Positions 9,267 through 15,485 of a stretch of DNA of 32,248 nucleotides are shown here, piece after piece. Below the pieces are notes generated by a model that saw nothing but the letters and a program-made list of their open reading frames with translations, was not told the origin of the DNA and made no database searches. The stretch is taken from assembly GCA_007124045.1 (NCBI GenBank), contig SLFX01000152.1:1-32248 (forward strand), read 5' to 3'. The first letter of the stretch is position 1; each line of letters opens with the position of its first letter. This DNA comes from Candidatus Delongbacteria bacterium. Lineage in GTDB: Bacteria > UBA4055. Both the position numbers and the translations under genes were made by a program.

Positions 9267-10430
9267 TTACCGGAAAAGGTCTTCAAGATAGAATTTTTTT
9301 ATACCGAGAAATTTTTTAAGACAGCAGATCCTTTCAAGATAAACAGAATGTTCGGCGGTTTTCTTTTTCCTTACGGCGGTAATCATAATGTTTTTGTGCG
9401 TGTGTTCGTCTGAAATATATTCGAAAATCTTCGTTTTGTAGCCGTTGGCTTCAAGCATGAGTGCTCTTAAGGCGTCAGTAGCCATTTCAGCCATCCTCTC
9501 CTCAAGTATTCCATGTCTGGTTATTTCTTTCAGCCCGTTCTCAATGTGAAACTGTTTCCTGATCTGTTTGTGGCAGCACGGTGACACTATTATGGCTTCG
9601 GCTCCGGAGCTGATACCCTTATAGATCGCGTCGTCAGTGGCTGTATCACAGGCATGAAGCGCGATAAGAATGTCGCAGGCGGGTATGTCAAAATCGGAAA
9701 TGCTTCCCTGAAGAAATTTCAGTCCTGTGTATCCGCACTCTGATGCTATTCCGTTACACATGCGGACAAGATCTTCTCTGTATTCTATCCCGGTCATATC
9801 GGTTTCTGTCTTAAGACCGTTAACAAAGAAATCATAAACCGAGAAAGTCAGGTATCCCTTGCCTGACCCCATATCAAATACAGTAAGCTTTTCTTTGTCT
9901 TTCAATTCCGAAGAGTCAATGATCCCGTCAATAGTTTCAACAAAGCGGTTGATCTGCCTGAACTTTCCACTCATCCCTTCATTCAACATGCCGTTTTTAG
10001 TAATGCCGAGCCCTTCTAGATAGATATTATTGTCAAGGCTGATCATCCTTTTCTTCTTCATATTATGTTCGGTTGAAAATTCAGATTCGCTGTGTGCGGG
10101 GTGCGATTTCTTAAAAAGTATCTTTCCTTTCTTCGTCCGCCTGAAAGAATAATCTGCTTCAGTGGTGAAAATTACGCATAAGGTCAATGTATTTCCGAAA
10201 AGTTCTTCCGCAAGGGCTAAACCTTTCTTGATATCGTGATTTTTTGTTTCAGTTTTGATCCTGTAAGTGTATAGAAATGAAAGTTTAGGTCCGTTTTTAA
10301 GTTCGATCAGCCTTACTGTCACCTTGTTAAGATCACCCTTTTTATCGTCCGGTGAAGAAAGTATAAGACGAATGAAGGTCTTGCCGGTAACTGATGCGGA
10401 TATGATCGTTTGTATATCTATTCCCTTCAT
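9267..10430 (-). CDS. class I SAM-dependent methyltransferase (Methyltransf_32-like)
   Basis: Encodes 387 residues. Residues 1-120 form a lysine-rich N-terminal region of unknown role. From about 160 the Rossmann-type methyltransferase core follows: the SAM-binding motif DMGSGKGY (186-193), an acidic GIEYRED strand end, and the segment LHACDTATDDAI (258-269) followed by SPCCHK (283-288). The HACDTATD and PCCH pair is characteristic of a family that includes METTL25-like and related proteins; an RNA or protein substrate is likely but unknown. The ATG at 10430 has no Shine-Dalgarno, and a TATATT element sits only 7 nt before it, so the mRNA may be leaderless. It stands alone between fba and the tRNA-Ser genes. 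Confidence 0.85.
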   Translation of the reverse strand: MKGIDIQTIISASVTGKTFIRLILSSPDDKKGDLNKVTVRLIELKNGPKLSFLYTYRIKTETKNHDIKKGLALAEELFGNTLTLCVIFTTEADYSFRRTKKGKILFKKSHPAHSESEFSTEHNMKKKRMISLDNNIYLEGLGITKNGMLNEGMSGKFRQINRFVETIDGIIDSSELKDKEKLTVFDMGSGKGYLTFSVYDFFVNGLKTETDMTGIEYREDLVRMCNGIASECGYTGLKFLQGSISDFDIPACDILIALHACDTATDDAIYKGISSGAEAIIVSPCCHKQIRKQFHIENGLKEITRHGILEERMAEMATDALRALMLEANGYKTKIFEYISDEHTHKNIMITAVRKKKTAEHSVYLERICCLKKFLGIKKFYLEDLFR

Positions 10431-10721: not shown

Positions 10722-10750
10722 AATATAAAACTATTTTAAGTTGAAGTCAA
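10722..10750 (-). promoter_or_regulatory. sigma70-type promoter of the tRNA-Ser pair
   Basis: On the minus strand TTGACT (10750-10745), 17 bp, TATATT (10727-10722). The -35 element lies within the last codons of the upstream 181-residue gene. Confidence 0.7.
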
Positions 10751-11281
10751 TTGTTTTTTCGTGCAAATACTGTCAAAAAATTTTCGGTAAACAACTCTGT
10801 ACGCAGGCTTATAACTGTCTCTGTAAATATCGGAATGATGTACTGCGGGGAATGACTTTAATTCAACGGAGCGGAAAAAGTCATCAAGATCTCCGGTGTC
10901 AAAAAATATTTTTTCAGTTTTTGCCATGTTTGTTATGGTTTTCCAGTAATTTTTTAAATTTGAAATTTCCGGCCGGAAATCATTTGCTGTTGCTATAAAC
11001 GCATCCAAAAGACTGCTGATGTCTCCTTCTGATTTTACAAAAGGTCTGAGGTTAACTCTCACAAGGCCGTTTGTTTTGCAAATCGGATCTATAATATCCC
11101 TGTCGCTGTAAATGTCCATTGAAACGATTTCCTTTTTTATCCATTTTTCTGCCGAACTCCGGTCGGGTACAGCATGTCCGGGACCCATTGCAGCCTGAAA
11201 AGCCAGTTTATACAGATCGGTGATTTTCATAGACGGGTAAGTTATGATGTGGTGTTTGACGATATTTTCAAAATCAGACAT
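10736..11281 (-). CDS. conserved-looking cytoplasmic protein of unknown function
   Basis: Encodes 181 residues with no signal peptide or membrane span. The most distinctive segment is YKLAFQAAMGPGHAV (24-38), a Gln/Gly-Pro-Gly-His motif that looks catalytic or structural. It is followed by an acidic segment with LVRVNLRPF (73-81) and a C-terminal HHSDIYRDSYKPAYRVV patch (about 148-164) rich in His, Asp, Tyr and Arg. I recall GPGH-type motifs in uncharacterised bacterial proteins but cannot attach a function. The ATG is preceded by CGGAG. Its 3' end carries the -35 element of the tRNA-Ser promoter. A promoter candidate for the gene itself is at 11316-11344. Confidence 0.8.
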   Translation of the reverse strand: MSDFENIVKHHIITYPSMKITDLYKLAFQAAMGPGHAVPDRSSAEKWIKKEIVSMDIYSDRDIIDPICKTNGLVRVNLRPFVKSEGDISSLLDAFIATANDFRPEISNLKNYWKTITNMAKTEKIFFDTGDLDDFFRSVELKSFPAVHHSDIYRDSYKPAYRVVYRKFFDSICTKKQLTST

Positions 11282-12541: not shown

Positions 12542-13186
12542 TTATCTTCCCTTTTCATCTTTCCAAATATATTTATGAAGCTGTATCTGGTACCTCGCAT
12601 CAAGTCTGTCATTTATGATCAGTTCGGCTATTTCTCTGTCTGTAATACTTGCGCAGGAAGTTCGGGATATGAGGACTTTATGTTTTTTTTCCAGGCCGTA
12701 TTGCTTTATGAGCGTTTTCATTGTCTCGTAGTCTTTAATGTCCGAAACTACGAATTTTATTTCGTCGTTTTTCGTCATTAAAGAAAGGTTGTTATATAAA
12801 AAACTGCCGTATTCTCCCGAACCGGGAAGTTTGATATCAACAATTTTAATGATATCTTTGCTAAGGCCTTTTAAAGAAACGCTTCCGTTCGTTTCAATAA
12901 GAATAGTTTTATCCTTTTTAATCAATGCCAGAGTTTTCAAAAGTTCCTTTTTCTGTAAAAGAGGTTCTCCGCCGGTAAATTCGACAATATTTGTTTCAGA
13001 GGAGTTGATAAGAGCGGCAAGTTTTTCCGGATGGTACGGAGTGCCTTCATGACCAGAGGCGTATAGGGTATCACACCATGTGCAGTTCAAATTGCATCCC
13101 GAAAGTCTGATAAACATACACGGAAGACCTGAGTAGGATGATTCTCCCTGGATAGAAGTAAATATTTCACAGACAATTAACGGCAT
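12542..13186 (-). CDS. queE: 7-carboxy-7-deazaguanine synthase (radical SAM)
   Basis: Encodes 214 residues, the usual size. It rearranges 6-carboxytetrahydropterin to 7-carboxy-7-deazaguanine in the queuosine pathway. EIFTSIQGE (7-15) is the family N terminus, and Cys31, Cys35 and Cys38 (CNLNCTWCDT) bind the 4Fe-4S cluster. EFTGGEPLLQ is the SAM-binding glycine motif. The start is fixed by the close TGA-G-ATG junction with the upstream 765-residue gene, 1 nt away, showing translational coupling. No queC, queD or queF is in the window, so the partner gene is the unusual one here. Confidence 0.93.
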   Translation of the reverse strand: MPLIVCEIFTSIQGESSYSGLPCMFIRLSGCNLNCTWCDTLYASGHEGTPYHPEKLAALINSSETNIVEFTGGEPLLQKKELLKTLALIKKDKTILIETNGSVSLKGLSKDIIKIVDIKLPGSGEYGSFLYNNLSLMTKNDEIKFVVSDIKDYETMKTLIKQYGLEKKHKVLISRTSCASITDREIAELIINDRLDARYQIQLHKYIWKDEKGR

Positions 13187-13187
13187 C

Positions 13188-15485
13188 TCAATAGACCTTT
13201 AGACTTTCTCCACTTTTGCAGGAAATCAGTTTTTTTTCTATTTCACACAGTGTCCTGTCGGATATGTTTCTGATATAATTATATGTCACGATCTTTTCTT
13301 TTTTGTATTCATCGGGTATTAGAGGGTCGTTTTTAATTGAGATTGAGAAGTCCTTTTCGTATTCTGCGGGAACCAGTATCAGATGATTTCCGCAAAGTTT
13401 ATTTTTTATGACCATATCAATTTCGCTTCGTTCAAACGGTATAATGAATATCTGAGGATCGCTGAGCGAGAATTTTTTGTAGAACTCATATTCATCAGAA
13501 AAAGGTTCAATCAGATTAAGAGCTTCAGCAAATTTTTCACGGTCATGAAAAAAATCGCACCAGCTCGAACCGAAATTAATTATCTTGGTAAGCTCTTTGG
13601 ATATGAGGCTGTAGGACTGATCGCCTGCACTTGCCGTTTTGTTCAGTGCGGAAAGGTAAATATCTTTTGCGATATGCTGATAATTGCCTATAAGATCTGA
13701 GAAAATAAAGACCTGTTTGCCTTCAGCGAGTTTCTCTCTGATGAGGTCTGAAGGAATTGGAGAATATGGATATGTCCGGTTAGCGCAGTTTATAAAATGA
13801 TCGTAATATGACATATCGACTTCGCCACCGGTCATCAGAGTTGTATCTTCATCGGAGAAATATTTAAAATAGAGAGACTTTTTCGATGCATCTCTAATTT
13901 CGACTGCAGCGGAACCCGGAACAACCCCTGAGTTGAAGAATTTTATGTTTACAGTATTTTTGTAGTTGTATCCTTTGCCCTCAGGCGTTATTCTTATAAC
14001 CCTTTCATTAATGGACTCAATGTCCTGACGGTCATACCCAATGTTGTTTTCAGAGGATATGTTCATCACGGGACTGTTTAGTTCCTTAATCCACTTAAGC
14101 CTTGATATCTTATAGGATATATCCGAAGTGAAAAGTTTTGCTCCCGGATTGTTTTTCATCAGTGAAGGAATGACATCAGTCTGAGAACCTCTTGCATTGG
14201 ACATCACCACGATATCGACTTCGGTTTCTGTTATCGGGACCTCAGGATCGAAAACAATCTTAACTCCGCTAATATCGGTTATAACTGATGTCTTTTCTGC
14301 TTCCTGAGCCGATGAAACGGTCATATAGTTGTTAACCTCAGAAAGTTCTATCCTGTTGGAAATTGATACCAGCCTTTCTGTTATCTGAGTTTTCAAATCT
14401 GTTTTGAGCTCCACAAATACTGTATCAAAATTCATGCTTCCAAGTCTTGCCTGGTTTTGAAAATACGGTTCAACAGCTTTCGAAAGCTCCTTGTTTCCTG
14501 TAAATATCACCAGATACTTGCCTGTAGTTTTTTCAAACAACATGTTTTTGACAAAGAAATTTTCATTAAGGAGTGAGTTTTTGAGTTTGAACTGAGTGAG
14601 TGCGGTGTCTATCTTCTCTCTTACGAAAATATAATTCTGATAGAAGCTGTTGAGATAGCTGAGATTTTTTCCTTCTTCAGGGCATATAACGATATCGTAT
14701 TTTTCGCACATGTGCTCTCTGATCTCTTTAAATACTTTAAGAAGGTTTTTGTAGAACTTACCGTAGTTGGTATCCGGTTCGGAGATAAAATTCACTACAT
14801 AACCCGAGCCGTGTCTGTAGCTTATATCCAGAATTCTTTCGGTTATGGAAATTGTGGGCTGTCTGCTCTCAAATATAATTTTGTTAAAAATCGTTTCATT
14901 GATTTTTACGAAATTTTCGATGATCTCTTTGATCTCTCTCGGGCTTTTGGACGATTTTTTTGGGGTGAAATCAAGCTCTTTTTTTACAGGCCCGGCAACT
15001 ATTTCTTCTTTTGGCAAAGATTCCTGTTCCTGTTCGCGAATACCGTATACTTTATTTTGGATGTGATCGTAAAGTTCTTTTTTGAGATTGTTGAAACTGT
15101 TTGTTTTTTTATCAATAGATGCATTAATTTCTTTCCTGATATTTTCTGTAAGATCATTTTTCGCGGAATCAATAATTTTTTTGAGGCATGAAATGTCGTA
15201 ATAAAGTTCTTCTGCGAAAGGTTTTTTAGAAAAGTCTTCAATATAGATACTGATGTCTTCATCAATAAAATTCTCTTCATGTTCGATAATGCCATCATCG
15301 AAACTCTCAAGTTCCTGTTCTGCCTGTTTTAAAAGAGATATGTTCTGGTTTTTTACAATATCGGGCATACTGTCATAATCAAGTCCGCTTAAATAATCAA
15401 CGGTATCCCTATTTTTTTTAATCTTTTCCAGAATATCGCGTCTGATCTTTATGCCTCTAATCAGTTCTTTTATGGGTTCATTCAT
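13188..15485 (-). CDS. probable degenerate beta-CASP metallo-beta-lactamase-fold protein with a long N-terminal extension
   Basis: Encodes 765 residues; GGAGAACGG precedes the ATG. Residues 1-190 are charged and helical, with probable coiled coil (100-150). Residues 190-385 are unassigned. From about 390 the order of motifs follows beta-CASP nucleases: an opening like GAxEVxxS (SSAQEAEKTS, 391-400) and KIVFDP; then VDIVVMSNARGSQTD (423-437), where SHAHxDH would be; FFNSGVVPGSAAVEI (516-530), where a GH-xGSA segment would be; and SLYFKYFSDEDTTL (537-550), in place of YSGDFS. A cap-like region and DPQIFIIPF (676-684) follow. Every zinc ligand appears replaced (Asn430, Arg432, Ser434, Gln435, Val521, Tyr542), so it should not be an active nuclease. 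RNA binding is a plausible guess. It is coupled to queE. Confidence 0.6.
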   Translation of the reverse strand: MNEPIKELIRGIKIRRDILEKIKKNRDTVDYLSGLDYDSMPDIVKNQNISLLKQAEQELESFDDGIIEHEENFIDEDISIYIEDFSKKPFAEELYYDISCLKKIIDSAKNDLTENIRKEINASIDKKTNSFNNLKKELYDHIQNKVYGIREQEQESLPKEEIVAGPVKKELDFTPKKSSKSPREIKEIIENFVKINETIFNKIIFESRQPTISITERILDISYRHGSGYVVNFISEPDTNYGKFYKNLLKVFKEIREHMCEKYDIVICPEEGKNLSYLNSFYQNYIFVREKIDTALTQFKLKNSLLNENFFVKNMLFEKTTGKYLVIFTGNKELSKAVEPYFQNQARLGSMNFDTVFVELKTDLKTQITERLVSISNRIELSEVNNYMTVSSAQEAEKTSVITDISGVKIVFDPEVPITETEVDIVVMSNARGSQTDVIPSLMKNNPGAKLFTSDISYKISRLKWIKELNSPVMNISSENNIGYDRQDIESINERVIRITPEGKGYNYKNTVNIKFFNSGVVPGSAAVEIRDASKKSLYFKYFSDEDTTLMTGGEVDMSYYDHFINCANRTYPYSPIPSDLIREKLAEGKQVFIFSDLIGNYQHIAKDIYLSALNKTASAGDQSYSLISKELTKIINFGSSWCDFFHDREKFAEALNLIEPFSDEYEFYKKFSLSDPQIFIIPFERSEIDMVIKNKLCGNHLILVPAEYEKDFSISIKNDPLIPDEYKKEKIVTYNYIRNISDRTLCEIEKKLISCKSGESLKVY

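Follow-up and report, generated by a model that had tools for sequence, protein, structure and literature searches.

A β-CASP-fold protein that has lost its metal site, encoded next to queE in Candidatus Delongbacteria

The locus and its genes

The window, i.e., the whole stretch of DNA that was analysed, comprises 32,248 nucleotides of contig SLFX01000152.1 from a Candidatus Delongbacteria bacterium (assembly GCA_007124045.1). The protein-coding frame of interest (Table 1) was placed correctly in a preliminary description made from the sequence alone: it is open from an ATG through 765 codons on the minus strand, and its full-length orthologues in other genomes show that it is no chance frame. 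The same description located its stop 1 nt from the start of queE, and the neighbor is indeed identified as QueE by two NCBIfam models, although both matches remain below the strict equivalog cut-offs. Two further minus-strand frames of the window (9267-10430 and 10736-11281) have no NCBIfam match.

Table 1. Features of the pseudo-β-CASP gene and of the adjacent queE (positions in the window)
Feature	Position	Strand	Basis or remark
Pseudo-β-CASP protein, whole ORF	13188..15485	(-)	ATG start, 765 aa; full-length orthologues in 11 other genomes
Variable helical N-terminal region, residues 1-180	14946..15485	(-)	Model; helices 3-33, 42-61, 88-106, 114-147
Two αββαβ units, residues 181-385, possibly tandem KH-like; best-conserved region	14331..14945	(-)	Models, conservation
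Degenerate metallo-β-lactamase/β-CASP core, about residues 386-740	13281..14330 (residues 386-735)	(-)	Profiles, AlphaFold2 model, Foldseek
SNARGSQ, residues 429-435, in place of [ST]HAHxDH (motif 2)	14181..14201	(-)	HMM-HMM alignment
SGV, residues 519-521, in place of AGH (motif 3)	13923..13931	(-)	HMM-HMM alignment
KY, residues 541-542, in place of GD (motif 4)	13860..13865	(-)	HMM-HMM alignment
DEYEFYKKFS, residues 664-673	13467..13496	(-)	Invariant in 12/12 members
queE (7-carboxy-7-deazaguanine synthase)	12542..13186	(-)	TIGR04349 2.1e-57, TIGR03963 7.7e-51

Distribution and genomic context

The 11 orthologues come from other genomes of the same family, share 37-52% identity and are conserved in length. 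The gene is present as a single copy in 12 of the 13 examined genomes of the phylum Candidatus Delongbacteria, and none of the nine with a completeness of 90% or more lacks it. Every gene-bearing genome belongs to one GTDB phylum; the names on their records are Candidatus Delongbacteria, UBP11, plain bacterium and, in one case (L022), Candidatus Cloacimonadota, although L022 groups within the Delongbacteria family. Towards the C-terminus, the protein of the window has approximately 22-25 residues fewer than its 11 relatives (window 13188-13290), with the terminal K-V-Y-type ending kept.

Among 373 genomes of other phyla no orthologue was found, the matches being due to chance or confined to the metallo-β-lactamase (MBL) domain of genuine MBL/β-CASP proteins, and a scan of the genome contigs returned 10 loci, all in phylum genomes already found. 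A mobile-element or viral origin was dismissed, as searches of IMG/VR, plasmids and phages gave no relative; the sole addition of a viral fold search was a match to a putative phage exonuclease. The window protein has no Pfam match at an E-value of 1 and none above the curated cut-off of any Pfam-A or NCBIfam family, and the family itself is without a Pfam or NCBIfam model.

Conservation of the adjacency among orthologues was examined as well: queE lies directly downstream on the same strand in all 12 gene-bearing genomes. The spacing ranges from -4 to +10 nt in nine relatives, the two genes overlap by TAATG in L012, and only in L022 are they 244 nt apart. Upstream, ribD is found on the other strand in nine genomes (the window included), with EPS genes beyond it on contigs that are long enough; the upstream genes are different in L012 and L022, and the contig of L013 ends there. 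As the adjacency persists where the upstream genes differ, queE is the steadiest neighbor. The only phylum genome without the pseudo-β-CASP gene, G012, is also without queE, but it is only 79% complete and the double absence may represent an assembly gap. In most relatives (L013-L016 and L019-L021) queE is followed by a frame of approximately 100 residues starting with MVKHIVMWK or MIKHIVMW, which is absent from the window and from L017.

Fold of the C-terminal part

A β-CASP fold had been proposed by eye for this part of the protein, and both profile comparison and structure modelling agree with it. In hhalign, the family profile aligns with 24 bacterial β-CASP proteins with a probability of 98 and E-values of 1e-13 to 1e-15. 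The controls, one reversed and ten column-shuffled, reach probabilities of 0-0.5%, which rules out a chance resemblance. At the sequence level, the MBL core and the beginning of the cap (to approximately residue 616) match best, and the remainder of the cap is assigned from the model. The family profile also recovers a canonical β-CASP protein of another phylum at 7e-9. Pfam matches are weak (Lactamase_B_3 in nine members, Lactamase_B_6 in five), and L009 is the only orthologue above a cut-off (Lactamase_B_6, 29 vs 27 bits).

The AlphaFold2 model, built from an alignment of only 12 sequences and of moderate confidence (pLDDT 75, pTM 0.49), contains the MBL/β-CASP core, the absence of which would have spoken against the proposed fold. 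Its top eight Foldseek matches in the PDB are archaeal FttA/KH-CPSF entries (1e-18 to 7e-17, with 2ycb at 1e-18), followed by Cas14, IntS11, TTHA0252, CPSF73 and CPSF100 (yeast 2i7x, 1.5e-13). By fold, as judged from profiles and model, the window protein is a member of the β-CASP metallo-β-lactamase superfamily. No RMMBL domain was detected in the window genome at an E-value of 0.01, nor at the locus in any genome.

In one member, L010, the MBL part matches the Cas14 profile of NCBIfam (3.8e-10). Cas14 of type VII CRISPR systems, an MBL-β-CASP nuclease, shares the fold, but the Delongbacteria protein has a different N-terminal part and no CRISPR context was seen at the loci. Membership in Cas14 was rejected on the basis of the score (39 bits against a cut-off of 800) and the different architecture.

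Loss of the metal site

The alignment with the 24 bacterial β-CASP proteins (98% probability) also confirms the motif replacements that had been read from the sequence, namely SNARGSQ, GV and KY. Six ligand positions were compared, four in motif 2 and one each in motifs 3 and 4. In the window protein they are occupied by Asn, Arg, Ser and Gln (motif 2), Val (motif 3) and Tyr (motif 4), and none of the six ligands is kept. The initial claim that every ligand is lost thus applies to the window protein, L007 and L010, but it does not extend to the other nine orthologues, each of which retains exactly one of the six at a varying position: the last His of motif 2 in six members, the Asp of motif 2 in one and the Asp of motif 4 in two. 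In addition, the motif-1 Asp (D413) is invariant across the family. The most divergent members, L011 and L012, keep the GD of motif 4 and have lost every ligand of motif 2.

No member carries the ligand set of active β-CASP nucleases (HxHxDH, the His of motif 3 and the Asp of motif 4), and an intact HxHxDH motif, which would have contradicted the preliminary description, occurs in none of the 11 orthologues. Since these retain at most one ligand each, the site appears to have been lost early, the relics being lineage-specific. That the relics differ by lineage suggests decay from an active ancestor rather than a fold that was never metallic.

The N-terminal region

Approximately 390 additional residues precede the core, as had been noticed before, but the expectation that they are partly coiled coil describes them poorly. 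In the AlphaFold2 model, the helices of residues 1-147 are followed by a low-confidence linker (residues 149-181) and by a folded repeat, residues 182-377, which is modelled as two αββαβ units both in isolation and within the full-length protein.

Possibly, residues 181-385 form tandem KH-like domains. A Foldseek search with the N-terminal part alone returns nothing below 3e-3, the top match being ribosomal protein eS7 with a TM-score of about 0.2. Among the weak matches are KH-CPSF 2ycb, 2xr1, RbfA with a probability of 0.94, and NusA, each of them KH or KH-like. A KH identity finds no support in sequence searches: the archaeal KH_TffA profile (PF17214) has no match at the locus, though archaeal controls match, and a PDB sequence search with the N-terminal region returns nothing. 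Moreover, no GxxG motif is present in residues 181-385.

Conservation and selection

Mean pairwise identity is 33% in residues 1-180, 66% in residues 181-385 and 54% in the dead core. Blocks strictly kept in all 12 members include GKGYN (503-507), QH (603-604), NFGSSW (637-642) and DEYEFYKKFS. The closest pair has a dN of 0.051 and a dS of 0.655 for the whole gene (dN/dS about 0.08), and of 0.023 and 0.573, respectively, for the core. The low dN relative to dS and the pattern of conservation indicate that the protein is maintained and that selection is not centred on the old active site. The gene is under purifying selection, and this ratio, together with a frame that is open and of comparable length in 12 genomes, rules out a pseudogene.

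Functional interpretation

The fold, the ligand loss in 12/12 members, the purifying selection, the single copy and the linkage to queE are established here. In accordance with the preliminary description of a pseudo-nuclease, the protein is in all probability catalytically dead and kept for a non-catalytic role. The most economical account, and our best reading, is a lineage-specific, RNA-associated pseudonuclease scaffold kept for binding. The protein would derive from a nuclease of the β-CASP metallo-β-lactamase type whose metal site had disappeared by the time of the Delongbacteria ancestor and which was then retained for another job. Hydrolysis of RNA by the β-CASP mechanism would be impossible, while the former substrate cleft and the conserved αββαβ repeat, perhaps KH-like, could serve to grip RNA or a partner protein. 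The close spacing with queE suggests that the two genes are co-expressed and that the protein functions in RNA metabolism, possibly that of tRNA. Taken on its own, binding of RNA is about as probable as its opposite; the net charge of -18 does not favor it, though many true β-CASP nucleases are equally acidic.

A more specific form of the scaffold reading is that the protein is a bacterial counterpart of archaeal FttA/aCPSF1 (tandem KH, MBL and β-CASP domains) which has lost catalysis and grips RNA at the transcription complex or at RNA 3' ends. FttA (KH-CPSF, MTH1203, PDB ID: 2ycb) is the best structural match, with an MBL and β-CASP core after approximately 200 residues, which in the Delongbacteria protein may be two KH-type units. 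Not only does it occupy the first eight places in the Foldseek search, but its alignments cover about 650-670 columns, compared with about 450 for TTHA0252, and must therefore extend into the KH part; the αββαβ units obtained for the N-terminal region alone, and the presence of 2ycb, 2xr1, RbfA and NusA among its weak matches, point the same way. The two contiguous type II KH domains of FttA precede the MBL domain, the first of them without GXXG (PMC3095777). However, the global rmsd is 15-17 Å, and the E-values no better than 3e-3 for the N-terminal part alone, with eS7 as the top match, the failure of PF17214 and of the PDB sequence search, and the absence of GXXG weigh against the counterpart. 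FttA also has its full set of zinc ligands and RNase activity, whereas the window protein has none of them, and the Delongbacteria protein is bacterial, bears an extra helical N-terminus of approximately 180 residues and contains only putative KH domains. Furthermore, the KH-MBL-β-CASP combination has been described as unique to archaea (PMC3095777), and Delongbacteria have Rho. Such a counterpart is rather doubtful, as is the corresponding view of a dead protein with FttA architecture acting as a conserved RNA-binding factor of a bacterial phylum; if true, the KH-CPSF design would extend outside Archaea, without nuclease activity.

Ligand loss of the same kind is known from CPSF100 (CPSF2/Ydh1) and INTS9, eukaryotic proteins of MBL/β-CASP fold (PMC4819959), and yeast CPSF100 is among the structural matches. 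The Delongbacteria protein might accordingly pair with a catalytically active β-CASP nuclease and be the inactive subunit, in the manner of CPSF100 with CPSF73 or INTS9 with INTS11. This is very unlikely, because only 3 of the 13 genomes (L031, L032 and L033, the same three that have RMMBL) encode a canonical β-CASP nuclease whose ligands are intact, as opposed to 12 that encode the pseudoenzyme; with RMMBL and Beta-Casp domains undetected in the other 10, a β-CASP heterodimer of the CPSF73/CPSF100 type is no general explanation. To our knowledge, CPSF100 and INTS9 also have no KH-like N-terminus. Since no other β-CASP protein was detected in most of the genomes, the protein may function by itself or as a homodimer, or cooperate with an RNA enzyme of unrelated origin, instead of forming the silent member of a β-CASP heterodimer. 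A partner outside the β-CASP family is possible, e.g., RNase E/G, which was detected in 11 of the 13 genomes (Rho in 12).

It is also conceivable that the protein is a direct partner of QueE in 7-deazaguanine/queuosine synthesis, e.g., a subunit holding the tRNA or a precursor. The same-strand adjacency in 12/12 genomes, with overlap or at most 10 nt in 11, its persistence in L012 and L022 despite other upstream neighbors and the joint absence from G012 are consistent with such a partnership. Nevertheless, close spacing may reflect merely a shared promoter, G012 is incomplete, the substrate of QueE is a small molecule, and we know of no such partner that QueE requires in other bacteria; we regard a direct partnership as unlikely. 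Still less likely is continued enzymatic activity through a metal-independent site newly evolved in the old fold: the invariant blocks listed above are as strict as catalytic residues, but invariant surfaces are equally compatible with binding, and no β-CASP protein is known to us to use a site of that kind.

Relation to described families and significance

The assertion that no family of this design had been described holds in part. Ligand-dead β-CASP proteins have been reported in eukaryotes, i.e., CPSF100 and INTS9 (PMC4819959), and RNase J2 of Staphylococcus binds a single metal with activity retained (PMC7864078). The latter, a Firmicutes protein (S. epidermidis), is a partial precedent, being a β-CASP protein of bacteria whose metal site is reduced, but it differs in having one metal and activity and in its architecture. 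RMMBL, which RNase J carries, was not found in 10 of the 13 Delongbacteria genomes. No description was found of the Delongbacteria family with its N-terminal architecture.

Among β-CASP proteins, loss of the ligands is best known from halves of the eukaryotic CPSF and Integrator complexes. A bacterial case that is near-universal in its phylum (12/13), single-copy, strongly conserved and mostly without an active β-CASP partner would offer a clean test of the function of the fold in the absence of cleavage. If its N-terminal region does consist of tandem KH domains, the family would also bear on the origin of the FttA/CPSF architecture.
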